Part shown: positions 18,973 to 44,511 of the stretch, piece after piece
How the letters are laid out: each line of letters opens with the position of its first letter
Numbering within the stretch: position 1 is the first letter of the stretch
Source of the DNA: Methanosarcinaceae archaeon
GTDB lineage: Archaea; Halobacteriota; Methanosarcinia; Methanosarcinales; Methanosarcinaceae
DNA: 46,711 nucleotides
Assembly (NCBI GenBank): GCA_020055655.1
Contig: JAIPUR010000020.1
Location: 1 to 46,711, forward strand
Direction of reading: 5' to 3'
Translations under genes and position numbers: made by a program
Notes under the pieces: generated by a model
The model's database searches: none
Seen by the model: only the letters and a program-made list of their open reading frames with translations
What the model was told of the DNA's origin: nothing

Positions 18973-19045
18973 AGCCACATGAGAGATTCGAACTCCCGGT
19001 GAGTCGCTTACAAGGCGACCGCCTTTCCTGCTTGGCTAATGTGGC
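18973..19045 (-). tRNA. tRNA-Thr (anticodon UGU)
   Basis: The minus strand folds into a complete cloverleaf. The acceptor stem GCCACAT/ATGTGGC is a perfect 7 bp, the D arm is GCC/GGC, the anticodon stem GTCGC/GCGAC encloses the loop CTTGTAA with anticodon UGU, and the T arm GGGAG/CTCTC encloses TTCGAAT. The base at position 73 is U, as in many archaeal tRNA-Thr. CCA is not encoded. It reads ACA, a codon used heavily in the Thr-rich tail genes. Confidence 0.93.
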
Positions 19046-19387: not shown

Positions 19388-19647
19388 TGCGACACATGAA
19401 ATATCTGAGTTACGGTAGCAATATATGTACATTGACGCATAATATAGTACACCAATGTACACATATGTACATTAAAGTTAACCCATGTTTCCAGTGGAAA
19501 CTAAAATAAACGATAGCAGTCGTTTGAAAACCAAAAGGTATATATAGTATAATATCGTAGTGAGTAGTATACGAACGAAGTGTCGGTACTCCCAGTTTTG
19601 CACATACAACAAATGTACGACTTTGGTTCAGAAAAGAAAGAGTTGTC

Positions 19648-19700
19648 TTAAGTAAACAAAAGTAAACAATTGTATACTTTAGACTTCTTTGTTATTTCTA
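19648..19700. repeat. 53-bp dispersed repeat, copy A (AGTAAAC family)
   Basis: This segment matches 38828-38880 at 52 of 53 positions. It includes two AGTAAAC units, the imperfect dyad AAGTAAAC-AATT-GTATACTT, and a tail AGACTTCTTTGTTATTTCTA. It lies in the 354-base gap between the zinc ribbon and MT-A70 genes. Apart from this repeat and a TATA-like string around 19540-19553, that gap holds nothing recognisable. It is probably a binding site for a viral or host regulator. Confidence 0.8.
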
Positions 19701-19708
19701 ATCAATTG

Positions 19709-20218
19709 TTATACTTGGTTACCCCATGAATCCCAATTGTCTCTTCGTCGTCTAGCGAACAGTTCGATATACGGTGGATAACTGACTTTCTCTATATATT
19801 CATACATCTCATCTGGTTTACGTGAGTGCTCTAGTCTCGGTGATATTATAGAAGTAGTGCCCTGTTGTCGCTTGCCTTCGATTGTTTTATATGGTAGCTT
19901 GCCCTTGACTGCAAATATACAATGTTCAGTTTGCCCACGGAAATACTGACCTAGCCCGAATCTATCTTTAGTCCATGTTATCATTGTTATATATCGGAAC
20001 CCCCACCCATCTACCACTTTCAATGCATCTGGTAGATGATTGTTTGTCGTCCACATATACAAATGGCAATTTTCATCTGATATATCGTCTATCCACTTGG
20101 ACATCTCAAGTATTTCCTTTGTCTTCATAAGTGGATAATGTTTGTCAGCACCTCTCTTTATTTTACCGCCGCCTGACTCATTCCAAGGCGGGTCGGCGTA
20201 TATTGTTTTATATTTCAT
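19709..20218 (-). CDS. MT-A70 family adenine-N6 DNA methyltransferase
   Basis: The 169-residue protein opens MKYKTIYADPPWNESGGG with the DPPW catalytic motif at residues 9-12. Further MT-A70 features follow: HLYMWTTNNHLPDAL, GFRYITMITWTKDRFGLGQYFRGQTEH, and SPRLEHSRKPDEMYEYIE. It transfers a methyl group from S-adenosylmethionine to adenine N6. In viruses it usually protects DNA from host restriction. No target-recognition domain is added, and the length is typical for phage MT-A70 enzymes. Confidence 0.9.
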   Translation of the reverse strand: MKYKTIYADPPWNESGGGKIKRGADKHYPLMKTKEILEMSKWIDDISDENCHLYMWTTNNHLPDALKVVDGWGFRYITMITWTKDRFGLGQYFRGQTEHCIFAVKGKLPYKTIEGKRQQGTTSIISPRLEHSRKPDEMYEYIEKVSYPPYIELFARRRRDNWDSWGNQV

Positions 20219-23813: not shown

Positions 23814-25529
23814 TCATTCACATTTACTATATCCACACACTTTACAAATACTACAACCAGCTTCAAACACGATTTCACTCTTGCATTCTGGACAGCTGTC
23901 GACAGATGTATCCTCTATTTCAATAATTGGTTTATAAAAATCTTTTATAGCATTCATTATTGCATATGCACAATTAGAACCACTGCTTAATTTATCTCCG
24001 TTAGCACGTGCTCTAACGAAACTGGAGCATGCACCGACTCCATCAATTGCTTTTTCTATGTTATCAAGTGACCCGCCAAGTCTTATCATACCAGACATTG
24101 CTATAACAAGCGAATCAAGTGAGCGTTCGCATCCACCCTTACCAGAGCGTTTCATGTAAAGCTCCTGTAGTTTACCAGTTGATTTACTATGTCCAATGAA
24201 TAATGCTATTTTACCACATCCTGTATATATCTTACGCTTGATGTAGATTGTATCACTGTCAAGTTTAGACCATTGTCCACGTTTGTATTCTGTATTTGAC
24301 TTACTGGATTCACCCGTTGTCAGTATACCCTCTCGGTTACTTCCTTCTCTGTGAACGGTGACACCTTTAAGACCCATTTTCCACGCTTGTATATAGACAT
24401 CCCTGACGTCTTCAACTGTTGAATCGTTTGCTAGATTAACTGTCGATGATATCGATGAATCTATAAACTCCTGCCATATTGATTGTGTTAGGATTCTATG
24501 AATTGGTTTTATTTCAGAAGCAACTATGAATTCACTTGGATATTCACATGAGCCGTGACTGTCTACATACTGCTGCACAATTCCGGGTCTCATAACATAA
24601 GACTTGTCTTTATCATGTAATGACTCAGTTCGTCTATTGTATTCAAGTGCAAACAATGGTTCAATTCCACCACTGACATCTAGCATAGTGCTAATGCTAC
24701 CAGTTGGTGCTATCGATAGTATACTAGCGTTTCGTAGTCCGTTATCTGAAATCAGTTCAATCGTCGACTTCGATAGATTATGATTTACAAACTCCGATGA
24801 CAATGTATCTTCTTTTACATAGTTGGGAAATGCACCAAATGTTCCAGCTAATTTAGCTGATTCCTTAAATGCATTATCACACATGAACGACGCCAGTTTA
24901 TTTGTGAATACAATGGCACTGTCACTGCCGTATCTAAGATTCATTTTTATAAGCATGTCAGCATAACCCATCACACCTAATCCAATTTGTCTCCAGTCCC
25001 TAGCTGCATTTCTTTGTTCTTCTAATGGGTGACGTGGTATACCCTCGTCCAGAACAGCGTTAAGAGCTCTCATAGCAACCTCTATTGTTCTACCGAACAT
25101 ATCAAAGTCAAACGTACCATTTTCACATACCATCTCACTTAAGTTAATACTGCCGAGTAAACATGCACCGTATGCTACCAATGGTACTTCACCACATGGA
25201 TTGAGACCAACTAGTTCATAATTACTATAATGCGACATTGCATTCCAGTTTTCAATTCTATCCCAGAATGCGATCCCTGGTTCTGACCAATTATAGTTAG
25301 CATCAACTAACTCGTCGAACAACTGACATGCATCAACTGTTTTATTGTATGTAGTATCATTCCTCGTAAACAATTGTTCATATGGTTCTTTGTTTTCGAC
25401 TGCTAACATAAACCCATCGTTCATACGTATGGATAGATTGGCTTTTAATAGAGCATCGTTAGATGTCTTAGCTGCAATGAAATCACCTATCTCAAAATGT
25501 TCACATGACATCGATAGCATTAATGCACC
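23814..25529 (-). CDS. nrdJ: Class II ribonucleotide reductase, exon 2
   Basis: This exon encodes residues 146-716 of the spliced enzyme. It starts at GALMLSM, which continues the sequence LIGQDGRR of exon 1. It holds the barrel with the radical-cysteine motif LNPCGEVPL, the GSINLSE strand, the APTGSISTMLDVSGGIEP substrate-binding loop, and a C-terminal Cys cluster (CPEC, CSICKVCGYSKC) that is typical of adenosylcobalamin-dependent reductases. An ATG-started open frame to 25748 exists but its first 73 codons lie in the intron. The enzyme makes deoxynucleotides under anaerobic or aerobic conditions. Confidence 0.9.
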   Translation of the reverse strand, partial: GALMLSMSCEHFEIGDFIAAKTSNDALLKANLSIRMNDGFMLAVENKEPYEQLFTRNDTTYNKTVDACQLFDELVDANYNWSEPGIAFWDRIENWNAMSHYSNYELVGLNPCGEVPLVAYGACLLGSINLSEMVCENGTFDFDMFGRTIEVAMRALNAVLDEGIPRHPLEEQRNAARDWRQIGLGVMGYADMLIKMNLRYGSDSAIVFTNKLASFMCDNAFKESAKLAGTFGAFPNYVKEDTLSSEFVNHNLSKSTIELISDNGLRNASILSIAPTGSISTMLDVSGGIEPLFALEYNRRTESLHDKDKSYVMRPGIVQQYVDSHGSCEYPSEFIVASEIKPIHRILTQSIWQEFIDSSISSTVNLANDSTVEDVRDVYIQAWKMGLKGVTVHREGSNREGILTTGESSKSNTEYKRGQWSKLDSDTIYIKRKIYTGCGKIALFIGHSKSTGKLQELYMKRSGKGGCERSLDSLVIAMSGMIRLGGSLDNIEKAIDGVGACSSFVRARANGDKLSSGSNCAYAIMNAIKDFYKPIIEIEDTSVDSCPECKSEIVFEAGCSICKVCGYSKCE

Positions 25530-26441
25530 CAATGCTATCGAATGATTTACACGTGTTTCCACGTGGTTCGGACTATATCTTACGTATAATATACGCTCGG
25601 ACGCTTCTCTGGTTATTAAGACTGTCGCCAGTCTCCAGTAGTCTCTACACCTTCCTACTCCGTAGGCTTGGCTCGGTATTACCATATCATTAGACACAGG
25701 CTTCACCGAATTCATCCAATTCAAGACGCAGTGCAACTGCTTTATCATGTTTACGATTTAATACAACAAAGTCATCTGAATAAATATATTCGATGAATTT
25801 CAGTACGTCACATCTGCTACTGAATTCGAGGATGTAACAATCCTCGCCTTTCTTTGGTCGTATTGCGTTTGATATACCAATTTTAATCAATATCTTCTGT
25901 ACACCCAAAAGGATATTATACTGTGAGGTGAATGATATTTTGTGCCATACTCTGTCTCTATCCTTCCGTCTACCCCATGTTATACAACCGTCTGCGTCAA
26001 ATATACCCAATATCATATAACGCTCTAGTTCAACTGGTATTATAGGAACATTTCTGTCTGGTTTTCGACATCCCCCAACGTGTTTGTTGATATGTTTAAC
26101 AAACTCGCGATTTGATATAGATGTCCTCGCTCGTGGGAATAGTCTCTGTGATTTAACCATTTTATCTGATGTTTGATAATTAGACCCAATGTAATCAGAT
26201 ATATATTCATGTATACATACATCTCGGTTTGAAGTACATAACGATACTGTGTCATTTGTTATGTATCCATCTGCCAATATAAATCCAGTTATATATGCCG
26301 TCTCCTTACTTCTAATTGATTTAAATTCAGAAATATTTTTGTATGTAGGATTGGCATCGTTTGGATGTTTGATTAGTATATCTTTATTCATGATAATTAC
26401 TCCTACTCTATATATTTTCGGTGTAAAGCAAATGTTAGTTA
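25530..26441 (-). ncRNA. Group I self-splicing intron in nrdJ
   Basis: Exon 1 ends in CGU followed at once by UAA, and the reductase reading frame resumes after a G at 25530, so a 912-base insert with U before and G at its end interrupts the conserved GRR-GAL sequence. The 160 bases after the endonuclease gene carry the group I core: GGAAGGUGUAGAGACUA (25642-25658) and AAGAUAUAGUCC (25570-25581), whose GACUA/UAGUC halves form P7. The endonuclease gene fills the 5' part. I could not assign P1 and the internal guide sequence. Confidence 0.88.
25690..26391 (-). CDS. LAGLIDADG homing endonuclease (intron-encoded)
   Basis: The 233-residue protein has two LAGLIDADG-type motifs, AYITGFILADGYI near residues 32-44 and YMILGIFDADGCI near 130-142, so it is a single-chain endonuclease. 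It lies wholly inside the group I intron, starts 50 bases after the 5' splice site and stops before the ribozyme core. Its AGGAGTAATTATC site precedes ATG. It would cut intronless nrdJ alleles to spread the intron. It may also help RNA folding as a maturase. Confidence 0.9.
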   Translation of the reverse strand: MNKDILIKHPNDANPTYKNISEFKSIRSKETAYITGFILADGYITNDTVSLCTSNRDVCIHEYISDYIGSNYQTSDKMVKSQRLFPRARTSISNREFVKHINKHVGGCRKPDRNVPIIPVELERYMILGIFDADGCITWGRRKDRDRVWHKISFTSQYNILLGVQKILIKIGISNAIRPKKGEDCYILEFSSRCDVLKFIEYIYSDDFVVLNRKHDKAVALRLELDEFGEACV

Positions 26442-26876
26442 ACGTCTCCCATCTTGACCTATCAGTGCAGTAGTTGTATTGAATAGCTCAGCGAATGACA
26501 CTGCTCCACTTGTTGCCCTAGCTGCATTGTTTATAGGCGTTCCAACTGGTGATAATTTGCTTAAATCAGTACCACATCCACCGCCGTATGAATATGTTCT
26601 TGCTATGTCAGATGATGTCTTATATATCGACTCAAGTGTATCCTCAAGTGGAAATACATAGCAATTGGATAGACTAAGTTTCCTGTCATTGATTCCCCTA
26701 GCAGCCAGTATTCTACCAGCGAACATGAATTTCTTTTCGTATATTAAATTAGCTACATCCGTGTCACCATTTGACACTCTTGTCACCCAGTCATCGAACG
26801 ACTCGTCACCGTTTCTATATTTTTTATTCCATATATCGACACCTATATCTGTGTCGAAGTAATCATTTGCTTCCAT
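26442..26876 (-). CDS. nrdJ: Class II ribonucleotide reductase, exon 1
   Basis: The 145-codon exon starts at an ATG preceded by AGGAGAATAAACAA. It encodes the N-terminal helical region and the first barrel strand, with redox cysteine 72 in LSLSNCYVFP and the conserved GGGCGTDLSKLSPVGTPI motif. It ends GQDGRR, and without splicing the ribosome meets TAA at once. An unspliced transcript therefore gives only this 145-residue fragment, which cannot be active. The full enzyme after splicing is 716 residues, within the usual range for class II. Confidence 0.9.
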
Positions 26877-37399: not shown

Positions 37400-38272
37400 T
37401 TATTCTCCTATTAACTCACCGAAATGAGCGGCAACTATTGCCATGTCTTGTATGTTTACATATCCATCCTGATTAACATCGTATCTAGGTAGAGCGTCGT
37501 CGCTATACTCGCCGCTATAGTTGTTTGCAACTATAACAAGATCTCTAATATCGACAACTCCGTCTTTATTTACATCCCATCTAGGATGCACTGTAAGCAC
37601 TGTAATTGTGAACTCGTCGTGTACCCATTGGTAATCATCTGAAACAGTCACATTGACGCTATATGTGCCTTCTGAAGCACGCCAGTATAATCTATCTGTG
37701 GCATCGTCAAATATCATTCCACTTGGTTTTTCTTCAACCCATATGCCAATGTCATCGCCATCAGTATCAGTAGCATTAATAGGCACCTCAAGAAATGTAC
37801 CATCATCGATGATAATATCATCGGTGGGCTCGAGTTCAGGTGGAGTGTTAACTAGTATAGTCACGTAATCTGTACTAGATTCAACTTCATTTAAGTCGCT
37901 GTCTATTAGCATGACATTGTCAAGTTTTACAACGTAATAACCGGTTTCGTTACCTGCTATCATGTTAATCGTGGAAATTCTACCACGTTTATCAAATGAA
38001 CCACCGCCTAATATAGTACCGAATCCGGTATTATCCTTGCTATTGAAATATGCATCGCCATTCAATAGTTCACCAGCTGTCATATTGACCATTGTAAAAC
38101 TATCATTGTAAACAATGTCATACTGGAATCCAGTATAGTTTATCCTTGTCGAACTAACGTCGACTGGGAATTCATCACCTGGACTAACCTCGTCATCTGC
38201 ATTAAGCTCTAATCCAGACGATATGTTAATGGTCAATAATATAACCATTAAATATATAATATATTTTTTCAC
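37400..38272 (-). CDS. Secreted cohesin- and dockerin-like protein
   Basis: A GTG start after AAGGAGAATAAAAT gives a 290-residue protein. Residues 1-20 form a signal peptide (MKKYIIYLMVILLTINISSG). Residues 20-150 match a cohesin fold (ELNADDEVSPGDEFPVDV, TGFQYDIVYND, GYYVVKLDNVMLID). A cadherin-like Ig segment follows, with PPELEPTDDIIIDDGTFLEVPINATDTDGDD near 150-185. Two calcium-binding dockerin repeats (DVNKDGVVDIRDLVIVANNY and DVNQDGYVNIQDMAIVAAHF) end it. Such proteins are common on methanogen surfaces. It lies among replication genes in a viral early operon, which is unusual. Confidence 0.85.
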   Translation of the reverse strand: MKKYIIYLMVILLTINISSGLELNADDEVSPGDEFPVDVSSTRINYTGFQYDIVYNDSFTMVNMTAGELLNGDAYFNSKDNTGFGTILGGGSFDKRGRISTINMIAGNETGYYVVKLDNVMLIDSDLNEVESSTDYVTILVNTPPELEPTDDIIIDDGTFLEVPINATDTDGDDIGIWVEEKPSGMIFDDATDRLYWRASEGTYSVNVTVSDDYQWVHDEFTITVLTVHPRWDVNKDGVVDIRDLVIVANNYSGEYSDDALPRYDVNQDGYVNIQDMAIVAAHFGELIGE

Positions 38273-38700: not shown

Positions 38701-38758
38701 TTAATCTATACTAAAGTATACAATTGCCAACAAAATAATGCTTAAGAATTCTAAAGTA

Positions 38759-38880
38759 TAGAAATAACAAAGATTAATAAAGTAAACAATTGTATACTTA
38801 AGTAAACAAAAGTAAACAATTGTATACTTAAGTAAACAAAAGTAAACAATTGTATACTTAAGACTTCTTTGTTATTTCTA
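38759..38880. repeat. AGTAAAC repeat cluster, copy B, with flanking inverted repeat
   Basis: Two full 30-bp units (38801-38830 and 38831-38860; each AGTAAACAAAAGTAAACAAT then TGTATACTTA) and one partial unit (38781-38800) lie in tandem. They are flanked by a perfect 15-bp inverted repeat, TAGAAATAACAAAGA at 38759-38773 and its reverse complement at 38866-38880. The last 53 bases are shared with 19648-19700. Further AGTATAC half-sites occur at about 38714 and 38895. This is the only clear content of the 224-base gap. Confidence 0.85.
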
Positions 38881-38903
38881 AACATTTGTAGACTAAAGTA
38901 TAC

Positions 38904-39784: not shown

Positions 39785-40293
39785 CAACTATTGGACACCC
39801 ATTGCACAGGCTCTATTTTTATGATTGCATCGTCTCCAAAAAGACATTTAGAATATTGTCTTAGTTGGTCACGTGACAATCCATTGATACTGTCATATGT
39901 TTTTAATACAATCTCCCATGTGGGATCCATCAACGAATAACAACTATTATATCTGTCATATACAACCGTATATGTGAATGGATGGGTACATTCTTCGTTC
40001 TCATGAATTGCAATTCTGTCACCGTTTTTTATACCCGGTTCGATTTTATGTGGTGTTTTTATATAAAACGGTGAATTGGGAAATATGGGCATTTCATTGT
40101 TTATCTCCTCTACTGTAGTTACCGTCGGAAGTCTTTCCATGATAATGGCAATATTTTTTTCATGCCTGACCAAACATGAATCAAAATTACTTGTTATCAT
40201 GTATGTGAAAAGCTCACCGTGTATGTTCTCAAGTACCGTACCCTGTTTAACCTTGTTTTCAATCATAACATAATCGTCTAAATTTATAAACAT
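39784..40293 (-). CDS. Unknown protein following the E1-like gene
   Basis: The chosen ATG at 40293 lies 8 bases after GAGGTGT; another ATG at 40299 is too close to that site. The 169-residue product is mixed alpha/beta with a GELFTYMITSNFDSCLVRHEK region and EPGIKNGDRIAIHENEE. It overlaps the E1-like stop by 10 bases, so it is translated with the ubiquitin-like cluster. No family is recognised. It could be a cluster-specific partner. Confidence 0.5.
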   Translation of the reverse strand: MFINLDDYVMIENKVKQGTVLENIHGELFTYMITSNFDSCLVRHEKNIAIIMERLPTVTTVEEINNEMPIFPNSPFYIKTPHKIEPGIKNGDRIAIHENEECTHPFTYTVVYDRYNSCYSLMDPTWEIVLKTYDSINGLSRDQLRQYSKCLFGDDAIIKIEPVQWVSNS

Positions 40294-40982
40294 TTCCATA
40301 CACCTCTGTATAACATTACAGTATCATTAACTTTGATAGTCCCGTTCTTACGGTCGACTGCTAGCGATCTCTGGTATTCATTATCACGTACTATATCACT
40401 GACTGCTCTTATCATATTAGCAGTTATGTCGAGTGCTATATATATAACAGCTCTTGCTGTACATGGCAATTCTAAAGCATCATTTGGGTTAAAAAGAGTT
40501 GATTCGTAGAACTCTCTGTCTTCTTTTGATTCCAAGTCGATTACATATACTTGAAATAGCTCACCACCTAACCGACCGTCTATCAACCATTTAACACCTC
40601 TATCAACGGCTCGAGTGTAAATACTCCGCCTTGATTCTATGCTATCGGTACCTACCATTACAATATCTGCATTGAGCCGAGTTCTAGGTGTGATGAACAC
40701 GGGCATTTTCTTAATTTGATTGCCTGTCTTCCGTTTGACTATTGCATTTGCTGCATTTACTTTGAACATTCCTATATGCTCAAAGTCAAAATTTTGATTA
40801 GGTAGATTATGCGGTTCTACCTTATCATTGTCATATACTGTCAAATCACTGAATCCCATTTGAGCCAAGTGTTCAACAAGGAAACTTCCGATTCCACCAC
40901 ATCCCGCTATAGATATACGTGGCTGCCATCCGTCATTTGGATTGAAAAAATCCAATTGTCTCATGTAGTCTATTTTAGTCAT
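40284..40982 (-). CDS. E1-like (ThiF/HesA-type) activating enzyme
   Basis: The 232-residue protein has the Rossmann ATP-binding motif ISIAGCGGIGSFLVEHLA with GCGGIGS at 27-33, then DLTVYDNDKVEPHNLPNQNF at 47-64 (the D-D-V-x-x-x-N-L-x-R/Q-Q type motif), and ADIVMVGTDSIESRRSI near 105-121. Cys174 in ELPCTARAVIY is the best candidate for the thioester cysteine. No CxxC zinc site and no ubiquitin-fold domain are present, as in short E1 enzymes of PRTRC and phage type. It would adenylate the C-terminal Gly of the modifier. It overlaps the JAMM gene by 8 bases. Confidence 0.88.
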   Translation of the reverse strand: MTKIDYMRQLDFFNPNDGWQPRISIAGCGGIGSFLVEHLAQMGFSDLTVYDNDKVEPHNLPNQNFDFEHIGMFKVNAANAIVKRKTGNQIKKMPVFITPRTRLNADIVMVGTDSIESRRSIYTRAVDRGVKWLIDGRLGGELFQVYVIDLESKEDREFYESTLFNPNDALELPCTARAVIYIALDITANMIRAVSDIVRDNEYQRSLAVDRKNGTIKVNDTVMLYRGVWKCL

Positions 40983-41835
40983 CGTCTACTCCATTTATCA
41001 TTTCAAGTTCATATTCCATCAAGTCTGCAAATGTATAACACTTGTTATACCCAAGGTCACACCATTCTTCAACTATTTCTTCATCTGACATGTCAATCAA
41101 CTGTTGAATTCCATAGTCTGATACCTCGTTCTCCATCAGTATACATGTTATAGCTCCAATATGTTCTTTATATGCATTCGATATTGGGATAGCGGTCTTA
41201 TCGCCATTCTTTGAAGTTGTCTTCGCATACTTATTTGGGTAGCTTGGCATTTTAACAACATTAGTCTTCAAATGCTCAACTATTTCTTTTAGTTCAGGTG
41301 CATCTGGGTCATCTGGTATAATAATACATTCAATTGAATCTATTGATTCAACATGTGTACCAAGTGAACTATTCACAATTACATCTATACGACCGTTCAT
41401 AGAATTACTTTTGTTAACACATATGTTAAAGGCATGTTTAACCCCAGTTGAACCCATGTAATTGTCAATCGTTTCGTCGTCCTGTCCACTGAACCCGGTT
41501 GACATATTGACATGTGAATGTATCCAACCGTTTATTGGTGTACCGTCCATATATGATTTCATTTGTACATCTGACAGAGCTTGACCGCCCCACTGACAAA
41601 CAACGCCACTGACTTCCTGTGGAATTTGATATATGTTTTGCACCAGTACATCTCCAGATACCTCGAGATCATGTTGACATGATATCATCGCTCCAACTTC
41701 GACATCGATATTATGCACCATTGTATATATCTTCTCCCATATACTAGTGGGAATTAAAAATCTGAAATCTCTACCCGTTGGCACTGGTTCATAATTGTAT
41801 TTATATGATTTTACTTGTTTATACGCCTTTCCCAT
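40975..41835 (-). CDS. JAMM/MPN+ peptidase (deubiquitinase-like)
   Basis: The 286-residue protein has a full JAMM site: Glu46 in DVEVGAM, then GWIHSHVNMSTGFSGQDDE with His106, His108, Ser116 and Asp119 in the H-x-H-x7-S-x2-D pattern. This predicts an active zinc isopeptidase. A C-terminal extension of about 110 residues has no known domain and ends in acid residues. With E1 and E2 genes on either side it matches PRTRC protein A or BilC. Because the modifier ends in Gly, deconjugation is more likely than precursor processing. Confidence 0.9.
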   Translation of the reverse strand: MGKAYKQVKSYKYNYEPVPTGRDFRFLIPTSIWEKIYTMVHNIDVEVGAMISCQHDLEVSGDVLVQNIYQIPQEVSGVVCQWGGQALSDVQMKSYMDGTPINGWIHSHVNMSTGFSGQDDETIDNYMGSTGVKHAFNICVNKSNSMNGRIDVIVNSSLGTHVESIDSIECIIIPDDPDAPELKEIVEHLKTNVVKMPSYPNKYAKTTSKNGDKTAIPISNAYKEHIGAITCILMENEVSDYGIQQLIDMSDEEIVEEWCDLGYNKCYTFADLMEYELEMINGVDDD

Positions 41836-41840
41836 TTAAA

Positions 41841-43019
41841 TCACCTAACTCTAGTGCATTTTTTAAGTTCATCTACCAACATGCGGAATTCTGTATCATT
41901 CATGTGAACTGATTCTAGGTATTCAATGTATTCTTCTTCTGATTCAAAGTTTTCCTCTGGTTCGAACATTTCATGATTGTTTGGTACATCTGGTATAATA
42001 TTATCTCTGAGTTTCATGAGTATCTCCCATATGTTCCTCGCATCGCATTCATTGTTCAGTCTATCAATTGCATTGCCGTCGTGTTGTAATAGACTAATAC
42101 CGGTATACATATCATACCTACGCACGACACATTTTGTTAATTCTCGGATCAAAGAAACATACTCTTCAAACGAAACATCAACTCCATATCGGTAAATATC
42201 TACTAGGAGTACATTGGATCCCCAATCTATATGAGAGCATATCCTATCATGTGCACGGGCACTATATTGGAGTACGTTGCAATATCCATTCAGTACATGT
42301 TTAGTTGCATTTATGGGCTTGAGTTCATATATATACTCACAATTGTTGCATATGTGAGTATTACTGTTACTGCATTCGAAACACTCACATCTATCACATA
42401 CATCTGACATATATGGACAATCGTCACATGGATTGACAGAAAATGGGTTCCACGTCGGAGAAGACATATTGCAAACCTTGAGCATATCAACAATAAGCTC
42501 TACCGCCATCGGTACATTCAATGCCTTTAACAATGTTTGCGGTAGTCTATAATCCCCCCAGCATATCTCACCGGTTGTGTATATATTTGGATGAGGACAT
42601 TCCCAATCATGGTCAGGATTGCACTCACCTTCGACCCATTCAACAGGAAAAATACGCACATCAATACCTAATGTGGTTGGATATAAATACATGTACAGTT
42701 CTCCCAGTTCACAGCTTAAATCAGGGAAATCATTTGCAATACATGTAATGTTTTCGATCGTCAAAACAAGACAATCATGCCGGCTGAATATTATTTCATC
42801 TGAATCATCTTGGAAATCCACCTGTATGAAGAACTCAATCCATTTCACATATCTAGCACCTGTAACATGCTCTATTTCCATAAGCCGCTCGAGTAATTCG
42901 CTATTAGACGGGAATATAATATCATTGAAATATTTACCCGTCTCTTTATAACATTTGAATAAAAACGGGTCATGTTCTTCTTGGTTTTCCACTACACCGC
43001 ATACGTCCATATTTCGCAT
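41841..43019 (-). CDS. E2-like conjugating enzyme with Cys-rich insert (PRTRC B-like)
   Basis: The 392-residue protein has an N-terminal RWD/UBC-type core. Its active-site segment ECPHPNIYTTGEICWG carries HPN at 143-145 and Cys153 as the likely thioester cysteine, the same order as E2 enzymes (HPN, then Cys 8 residues later). After the core, eight Cys at about 198-227 (CDDCPYMSDVC, CECFEC, CNNC) suggest zinc binding. The C-terminal 100 residues are helical and acidic. GAGGTGTATAT precedes ATG. It would accept the modifier from the E1-like enzyme. Confidence 0.8.
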   Translation of the reverse strand: MRNMDVCGVVENQEEHDPFLFKCYKETGKYFNDIIFPSNSELLERLMEIEHVTGARYVKWIEFFIQVDFQDDSDEIIFSRHDCLVLTIENITCIANDFPDLSCELGELYMYLYPTTLGIDVRIFPVEWVEGECNPDHDWECPHPNIYTTGEICWGDYRLPQTLLKALNVPMAVELIVDMLKVCNMSSPTWNPFSVNPCDDCPYMSDVCDRCECFECSNSNTHICNNCEYIYELKPINATKHVLNGYCNVLQYSARAHDRICSHIDWGSNVLLVDIYRYGVDVSFEEYVSLIRELTKCVVRRYDMYTGISLLQHDGNAIDRLNNECDARNIWEILMKLRDNIIPDVPNNHEMFEPEENFESEEEYIEYLESVHMNDTEFRMLVDELKKCTRVR

Positions 43020-43040
43020 ATATACACCTCTTTTGATATT

Positions 43041-43076
43041 TAAAAAAATAAAAATAGTGAACGGGTTTAACCGTTC
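43041..43076 (-). terminator. Hairpin-T terminator after the Ubl gene
   Basis: On the minus strand GAACGG and CCGTTC pair over 6 bp around TTAAAC, starting at the last base of the modifier stop codon, and ACTATTTTTATTTTTTT follows. It would end most modifier transcripts before the E2 gene, giving much more modifier than enzymes. Confidence 0.65.
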
Positions 43077-43333
43077 TAACCGTTCTTGATCTGTGCAGCT
43101 GTAACTGTCACAAAATTAATGACCTGGTTTTCACCGGTTTCATCGACTATGTAAGTATCGACTTTTACGCCACCTACATTACTGCCGATTATACTATCTG
43201 CTACCTTAACAGCAATGTCTACGTCATCGTATGCTTTAATAAGCACGTCACCTACAGTCCTAATTCCACAGACTGTGACTCTCTTAATCTCATCGCCGAT
43301 ACCGACATTTACAATATATTCTCTAGTTTCCAT
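43076..43333 (-). CDS. Candidate ubiquitin-like modifier (Ubl)
   Basis: The start at 43333 follows AAAGGAGCAAAAAAT. The 85-residue product reads as a beta-grasp order: strand REYIVNVG, strand IKRVTVCG, helix TVGDVLIKAYDD, further strands VDTYIVDE and VINFVTVTA, ending AQIKNG with a C-terminal Gly. Size, end and position directly before E2, JAMM and E1 genes match Ubl genes such as PRTRC protein C or BilA. It has a separate strong start and terminators on both sides. The fold is inferred by pattern, and no alignment was possible. Confidence 0.6.
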   Translation of the reverse strand: METREYIVNVGIGDEIKRVTVCGIRTVGDVLIKAYDDVDIAVKVADSIIGSNVGGVKVDTYIVDETGENQVINFVTVTAAQIKNG

Positions 43334-44339: not shown

Positions 44340-44417
44340 GTTTAAAACCTCTAAATTTTAAAAATTTTGCAGGAAATTCGGCATACTACTATATTCCCAC
44401 TTGAAAACTATATTAAT

Positions 44418-44511
44418 TTTTATAACGATGTTTTTATAAAAGTATTAATATAAAAACATTAATATAAAAATATTAATATAAAAGTATTAATATAAAAACA
44501 TCGTTATAAAA
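44418..44511. repeat. AT-rich 14-bp tandem repeats inside a 21-bp inverted repeat
   Basis: Five near-identical 14-bp units of the type AAAAGTATTAATAT lie at about 44439-44508. They are enclosed by a perfect 21-bp inverted repeat (44418-44438 and 44491-44511, inner part TATAACGATGTTTTTATA). The whole 94 bases are nearly pure A+T. It resembles the melting element and iterons of a replication origin. Confidence 0.8.

Follow-up and report, generated by a model that had tools for sequence, protein, structure and literature searches.

A putative ubiquitin-like conjugation cascade encoded by an archaeal tailed virus, with relatives in other tailed viruses

Introduction

Bacterial defence systems and plasmid cassettes, which act on or beside viruses, are known to contain complete sets of a ubiquitin-like modifier (Ubl) together with E1, E2 and JAMM enzymes. 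The bacterial BilABCD system, which is ISG15-like, has its Ubl, E2, JAB/JAMM and E1 in one operon, and the JAMM processes the Ubl precursor (PMC11354881). Here we describe a set of this kind that is owned by a virus. The set lies at positions 40284-43333, on the minus strand, of a stretch of 46,711 nucleotides, from here on "the window", which is the whole of contig JAIPUR010000020.1 in the 2.48-Mb archaeal assembly GCA_020055655.1 (Methanosarcinaceae archaeon). We think it likely that the four genes are a virus-encoded cascade for Ubl conjugation and deconjugation, with proteins of DNA replication and repair as the best candidates for its targets.

Several other described systems bear on this set. 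The archaeal SAMP/UbaA/JAMM1 systems and the Caldiarchaeum ubiquitin system are homologous to it in their Ubl, E1 and JAMM, but they are cellular, whereas the window cassette is viral. We know of no E2 in the SAMP systems, and the Caldiarchaeum system has a RING E3. Among viruses, the known caudoviral Ubl-JAB pairs sit in tail assembly clusters (PMC1779556), a setting unlike that of the window cassette. The full-text literature that we searched, which mostly leaves out subscription papers and preprints, describes no full viral Ubl cascade, and in it only comparative papers of 2006 and 2007 are relevant. The novelty of a viral cascade is thus provisional.

A four-gene cassette in a tailed archaeal virus

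The window is the genome, or a part of the genome, of a tailed archaeal virus: it has virion genes, relatives among archaeal viruses, and a place in an archaeal assembly. Genes for TerL, a portal and a head (capsid) protein lie on the plus strand, with PHROG matches for TerL and the portal, and nearly all relatives that the portal has in the phage collection come from haloarchaeal tailed viruses. The assembly carries an archaeal 16S gene and also McrA, which identifies it as that of a methanogen; judged by inspection, the 16S gene points to the Methanosarcinales. We found the window TerL in no other genome among 27 congeners, and the JAMM is absent from all other genomes among 101 sampled from the same archaeal family. 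We searched the window for a contig-end repeat indicating circularity, and found none.

In the 5′ to 3′ direction of the minus strand, the four consecutive genes encode the Ubl (85 aa; 43076..43333), an E2-like conjugating enzyme with a C-terminal Cys-rich module (392 aa; 41841..43019), a JAMM/MPN+ metallopeptidase predicted to process and deconjugate the Ubl (286 aa; 40975..41835), and an E1-like adenylating enzyme of the ThiF/MoeB fold (232 aa; 40284..40982). The assignments use the open reading frames (ORFs) and profile matches of the E2 and the JAMM, the latter with its motif as well; Pfam ThiF and a profile for the E1; and, for the Ubl, its ORF, a predicted structure, a viral Ubl profile and a homologue in a sister virus. 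A preliminary description of this DNA, which a model had made from the letters alone, had pointed to these genes. We confirm their ORFs, and the overlap of JAMM and E1 is exactly the 8 bases claimed (40975-40982), with the start of E1 over the stop of JAMM. The motifs listed there, namely the terminal Gly, HPN with a Cys 8 residues on, H-x-H-x7-S-x2-D, and GCGGIGS, are all present and intact.

Two relatives make the comparison informative. The first is a sister virus in IMG/VR, with a TerL 62% identical to that of the window. It has Ubl, E2, JAMM and E1 arranged as in the window and retains every motif; its E1 is 45% identical to the window E1, its JAMM is 35% identical across the catalytic domain, and two additional genes separate JAMM from E1. 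The other, L165, is a contig of 24 kb that binning assigned to a Bacteroides metagenome-assembled genome (MAG), a bin name that is probably wrong. It too has the full set, with an E1 43% identical to that of the window, a JAMM with 29% identity (5e-15), and an E2 with 29% over 100 aa that span the active-site motif and the Cys module (4e-10). L165 also encodes relatives of the window RNA ligase (9e-29) and of a window ATPase (2e-8). In an approximate tree, in which the host outgroup was not recovered, the E1s of the window, the sister and L165 group together as a single clade (local support 0.995). The host genome also encodes a ThiF-family gene of its own outside the cassette. That a tailed archaeal virus carries the full set of Ubl, E2, JAMM and E1 is supported by the predicted fold of the Ubl, by the E2 and JAMM profile matches, and by the archaeal affiliation of the virus. 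Because strongly diverged genes retain every catalytic motif, we infer that the whole cascade is under purifying selection.

For the window E1, the match to Pfam ThiF has an E-value of 6.5e-23. The nucleotide-binding motif GCGGIGS (residues 27-33) is at 40884..40904 on the minus strand, and the residues G27, G29, D51, N59, K74, D113 and R137 are each invariant in 58/58 non-redundant viral E1s. Cys174, which lies in the sequence PCTAR (40461..40463, minus strand), is present in 57/58 of them, and by this conservation it is the candidate thioester cysteine. The best PDB matches of the E1 profile are MccB, UBA5 and the NEDD8 E1, and BubCD and Cap2 also appear.

The E2 active-site motif HPNIYTTGEICWG (42555..42593, minus strand) includes HPN at residues 143-145 and, 8 residues past the Asn, the presumed catalytic Cys153. 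The corresponding motif of the sister is HPNISSDGDICWG, and the His, Pro, Cys and Gly are invariant in 15 viral E2 cores. Taken singly, the Pfam matches of the window E2 are sub-threshold, and right in kind (Prok-E2_D 0.0096, UQ_con 0.088); against PRTRC_B it gives 0.0092. With hhalign, the window and sister E2s align to 13 other viral E2-like proteins through the active site and the next helix at 96.8%. A profile of the 15 viral sequences, compared to the PDB, finds E2 enzymes in nearly all of the 60 matches shown (best E 0.033), and it aligns with UBC1 over positions 82-184 with HPH...C on HPN...C in register. Behind the core there is a zinc-finger-like Cys-rich module of the form C-x2-C ... 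C-x2-C-x-C-x2-C ... C-x2-C (42336..42431, minus strand). The Cys pairs of this module are conserved in the sister, and other viral E2s have similar Cys-rich tails.

The JAMM carries Glu46 and the motif HSHVNMSTGFSGQD (41479..41520, minus strand), that is H106-S-H108-x7-S116-x2-D119. E46, H106, H108, S116 and D119 are invariant in 6 viral JAMMs. Pfam Prok-JAB matches at 0.037, which alone is sub-threshold and again right in kind, and the profile matches Rpn11 (6.5e-5), JAMM1 (0.0023) and the Caldiarchaeum Rpn11 homologue (0.0046).

The window Ubl (METREYI...AAQIKNG) has a single C-terminal Gly, which sits on a low-confidence tail, residues 75-85 of the model. The preliminary description had set beforehand, as a test that could refute it, whether this 85-residue protein is a beta-grasp. 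The AlphaFold2 model, made from a 14-sequence alignment, has the order beta-beta-alpha-beta-beta-beta and a disordered tail, with a predicted local distance difference test (pLDDT) of 57. Its best Foldseek matches in the PDB are Caldiarchaeum ubiquitin, TtuB, 8tyx (a bacterial Ubl bound to a deubiquitinase) and SUMO-like domains, with probability up to 0.99 and E >= 0.012. So the protein does come out as ubiquitin-like, at these scores. A viral Ubl profile that includes the window Ubl matches PF1061 (9e-6) and SAMP2 (1.7e-5), and also MoaD and TtuB.

The Ubls of the two relatives are built differently at the C-terminus. The sister Ubl (85 aa) ends in SAPKSGGG followed by MSTNVHIV, a tail of 8 residues beyond the Gly run. 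In L165, positions 690-1634 encode a 314-aa protein of three tandem Ubl units, a polyubiquitin-like layout in which each unit ends in SAPKFEAG or similar. Both forms need a peptidase that exposes the C-terminal Gly, which implies maturation by the JAMM. The window Ubl is already tailless, and the window JAMM would therefore be mainly a deconjugating enzyme.

How the cascade might work

Read by homology, the cassette is very probably a working conjugation cascade. The E1 would adenylate the Ubl at its C-terminal Gly and load it, probably on Cys174; the Ubl would be handed to Cys153 of the E2, and the E2 would link it to lysines of the target. The Cys-rich module of the E2 perhaps picks the targets in place of an E3, although this selecting role is a guess. 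The JAMM would strip the Ubl from targets, and in the relatives it would also mature the tailed or tandem precursors. The most likely targets would be proteins that replicate and repair DNA, of the virus or of its host, at an early stage of infection.

The same parts could be arranged for a different chemistry. As a sulfur carrier, the Ubl would be converted by the E1 into a thiocarboxylate for the thiolation of tRNA or nucleotides, as with ThiS, MoaD or TtuB, and the JAMM would mature the carrier. In profile searches the small viral Ubls do resemble SAMP2, MoaD, TtuB and ThiS, and ThiF is among the closest NCBIfam scores of the E1. But an E2 has no sulfur-transfer role, and an E2 with a conserved catalytic Cys is present in 49/57 of the viral loci described below; nor did we recognise a sulfurtransferase or rhodanese gene beside the cassette. 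We consider a sulfur carrier very improbable.

Some observations weigh against the conjugation cascade and its proposed targets. The window Ubl and E2 are, as judged from their sequences, very divergent. The Ubl has no match in Pfam, NCBIfam or PADLOC, and only phrog_28099 (0.0075) is found; hhalign links it weakly with the other viral Ubls (34.7%). The E2 structure model, made from 15 sequences, has a pLDDT of 49.5 and its Foldseek matches are meaningless, and because this model is unusable the UBC fold rests on sequence. The window E1 has no separate Cys domain. And the gene neighbourhood, to which we come below, suggests replication by association only.

Comparison with described systems

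The preliminary description had likened the set to PRTRC elements and to bacterial Bil operons, a likeness that holds as to how the cassette may work and fails as to family membership in PRTRC, whose family cut-offs are missed. The resemblances to PRTRC are several. Among named plasmid proteins, those of the PRTRC ThiF kind are nearest to the window E1; PRTRC C, which is small and Ubl-sized, ends in KTNG where the window Ubl ends in IKNG; the motif PL-x-N-[IV]-x(5-6)-C-x-G of PRTRC B is matched by N-I-x(5)-IC-W-G in the window E2; and both adjoin replication or partition genes. However, the window E1 scores 37.4 bits against TIGR03736 (ThiF), where the cut-off is 144.75, and the window E2 scores 15.4 bits against TIGR03737 (protein B), where the cut-off is 131.45 and only the Cys motif is matched, at residues 139-162. 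For PRTRC A and C, neither the window JAMM nor the window Ubl has an NCBIfam match at E <= 1. In addition, two plasmid PRTRC E1s are placed elsewhere in the E1 tree, the window E2 has its Cys-rich module, and by eye, with some of the neighbours scanned, we recognised no ParB-related gene beside the window cassette, although ParB-like neighbours are found near some other viral cassettes. With the NCBIfam cut-offs missed by such wide margins, we do not file the window cassette as PRTRC.

With BilABCD the window shares the four-gene composition of Ubl, E2, JAB and E1. BilA has two Ubl domains, BilD has an inactive and an active adenylation domain and a Cys domain, and BilB has a CEHH motif (PMC11354881), whereas the window has a single Ubl of 85 aa, a single-domain E1 of 232 aa, and an E2 of the HPN-x7-C form. 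These differences in the domain make-up of the Ubl and the E1 exclude Bil identity, and PADLOC reports no match for the window Ubl, E2 or JAMM. CBASS type II (Cap2/Cap3), BubCD and other E1-E2 immune systems resemble the window through the homologous domain of their E1 (Cap2, Citrobacter BubCD). They either fuse E1 with E2 or place them in an immune operon, of the nucleotide-signalling kind or another, while in the window the genes are separate and there is no cyclase.

The composition shared with BilABCD (PMC11354881) could also mean that the cassette is the cargo of a temperate virus, shielding the infected host from competing viruses by a Bil-like tagging of their virion proteins. This we find improbable. 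The E1 is one short adenylation domain as opposed to the two-domain BilD (PMC11354881), the cassette lies in a replication region that belongs to the virus itself, crAss-like phages retain it, and inspection of the window by eye revealed no integrase.

Relatives in other viruses

Single-protein look-ups reveal almost nothing of the viral relatives, and a profile is required to find them: scans of IMG/VR with the window E1 or JAMM alone returned no match, and the window JAMM, E2 and Ubl, each compared singly to the phage collection, returned none or one borderline relative. A profile scan of IMG/VR, in contrast, confirmed 311 contigs with E1 relatives. For the locus counts, we took the best 80 of these 311 contigs and four phage records (L003-L006), which reduce to 57 non-redundant viral loci. 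In 76/80 of the best contigs, a JAMM motif occurs no more than 6 kb from the E1. Among the non-redundant loci, a JAMM is found in 55/57 and an E2-like gene in 49/57, a Ubl candidate in at least 37/57, and all three partners in at least 34/57. The Ubl counts are lower bounds because the selection rule misses tailed forms such as the sister Ubl.

The cassettes are of several types. In Bacteroides phage crAss001 (NC_049977.1), Gp76-Gp79 are Ubl-like, E2-like, JAMM and E1, and Flavobacterium phage FpV4 also carries a cassette. Both resemble the window in gene order, in belonging to tailed viruses, and in the replication genes that adjoin them; they differ in having Bacteroidota hosts, an E2 of the form HSH...C-x-G instead of HPN, and a Ubl with a long C-terminal extension. 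The HSH...C E2 and the long-tailed Ubl define the crAss-like type. A SAP-like reading of the extension of the crAss Ubl precursor, proposed by eye, is unsupported by Pfam. Further types have differently built E2 and Ubl genes, and an HPH...C-x-G type of E2 is the nearest to the window in motif. A Xanthomonas jumbo phage has an E1 and an E2-like gene. In the cultured crAss-like and Flavobacterium phages, the cassette genes are annotated as hypothetical, metalloprotease, or "thiamine biosynthesis protein". The preliminary description had none of this viral spread, nor the two genes inserted in the sister, nor the Cys-rich module of the E2.

Outside these loci, 25 more E1 loci occur in genome MAG contigs, with the E2 motif in many and a JAMM in some. 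The E1 relatives L166-L188 come from MAG contigs assigned to Myxococcales, Chloroflexi, Methylomirabilota and Patescibacteria, where many adjoin an E2 (HPHV...C-x-G) and some a JAMM.

Genomic neighbourhood and candidate targets

The window cassette is located upstream of a replication block, on the strand opposite to the virion genes, with roughly 22 kb between it and the virion module. On the minus strand there are genes for an archaeo-eukaryotic primase (AEP), a thymidylate synthase, an RNA ligase and a ribonucleotide reductase, and also for a Hjc-like resolvase, for which the match is weak (E 0.021). In crAss-like phages, the cassette is between DNA primase and uracil-DNA glycosylase (UDG), followed by a resolvase, a PD-(D/E)XK exonuclease and ribonucleotide reductase. 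The neighbours in other viruses include DnaB/primase, Sak4, polymerases, helicases, SbcC and ParB, and topoisomerases neighbour the cassette genes in the Xanthomonas jumbo phage. No head or tail name appears among the 25 most frequent PHROG families, as counted over 104 neighbours in the non-crAss loci. In one viral group (L126, L133, L141-L143 and L148-L157), the cassette is followed by a gene that matches PHROG polymerase/reverse transcriptase families.

This setting bears on a role in virion assembly, which would be comparable to that of the Ubl and JAB proteins in lambda-type tail clusters. The preliminary description had offered control of tail or capsid assembly as one role, and Ubl and JAB are indeed known from caudoviral tail assembly clusters (PMC1779556). 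But what is described there is a pair of Ubl and JAB, to which the window cassette adds E1 and E2; its strand and its distance from the virion module speak against such a role, as do the DNA-metabolism genes that are its neighbours in other viruses. Because the window and related cassettes sit in DNA-replication modules, a tail or capsid role is disfavoured, and we regard it as highly improbable.

Replication and repair proteins are the most likely targets because the cassettes adjoin primase, helicase, polymerase, resolvase, exonuclease and nucleotide-metabolism genes. That they are the main targets is a proposal from context to which we give slightly less than an even chance. The preliminary description had named host defence or replication factors as possible targets: replication (or repair) factors are those that fit best by context, and host defence factors are possible.

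The main rival to replication control is counter-defence or host takeover, in which the tagged proteins would be immune or metabolic proteins of the host, which are inactivated by the tag or directed by it to the archaeal proteasome. The machinery is like that of the bacterial immune Bil and CBASS systems, the cassette is in a non-virion and presumably early module, and its spread over unrelated tailed viruses is wide and patchy, all of which speaks for such a role. On the other hand, the cassettes are usually inside replication modules and not in accessory gene arrays, and in the crAss-like phages examined the position between primase and UDG/exonuclease resembles that of a core function. We judge counter-defence to be unlikely, while giving it appreciable weight.

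Other features of the contig

A tRNA-Thr gene (18973-19045) separates the virion module from the oppositely oriented early module. Near-identical AT-rich repeats CTTAAGTAAACAAAAGTAAACAATTGTATACTT are present at 38738-38901 and 19642-19709, in two intergenic regions 19 kb apart, and the copy at 38.8 kb is tandem and palindromic; a possible role is that of an origin or a shared promoter. Upstream of the Ubl cassette, at 44416-44511, there are 14-base AT-rich tandem repeats inside a 43-nt inverted repeat.

The ribonucleotide reductase (23814-26876) is encoded as two ORFs, which cover profile positions 1-76 and 78-522, with a LAGLIDADG protein (25690-26391) between them, and this split suggests an intein or a homing insertion. 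At 37400-38272, a viral protein with a signal-like N-terminus has an Ig-like domain and a dockerin type I domain, which is unusual for a virus. It may be of host origin.

Implications

More speculatively, and with somewhat less confidence than we have in the replication targets themselves, we propose that an ancient and fast-diverging Ubl conjugation system, dedicated to the DNA-replication machinery, is common to tailed viruses of bacteria and of archaea. Such a system would be the viral counterpart of the control of the replisome by SUMO and ubiquitin, evolved or persisting outside cells, and its archaeal branch would have tandem-Ubl precursors and an E2 with its own zinc-finger targeting module.

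Since similar sets adjoin DNA-copying genes in many tailed viruses, cultured gut phages included, our results suggest that protein tagging is a widespread and apparently undescribed viral tool. Should the system prove functional, viruses tag proteins reversibly while their DNA is being replicated, and this could be tested directly in the cultured phages crAss001, DAC15 and FpV4. It would also add viral branches to the prehistory of ubiquitin.

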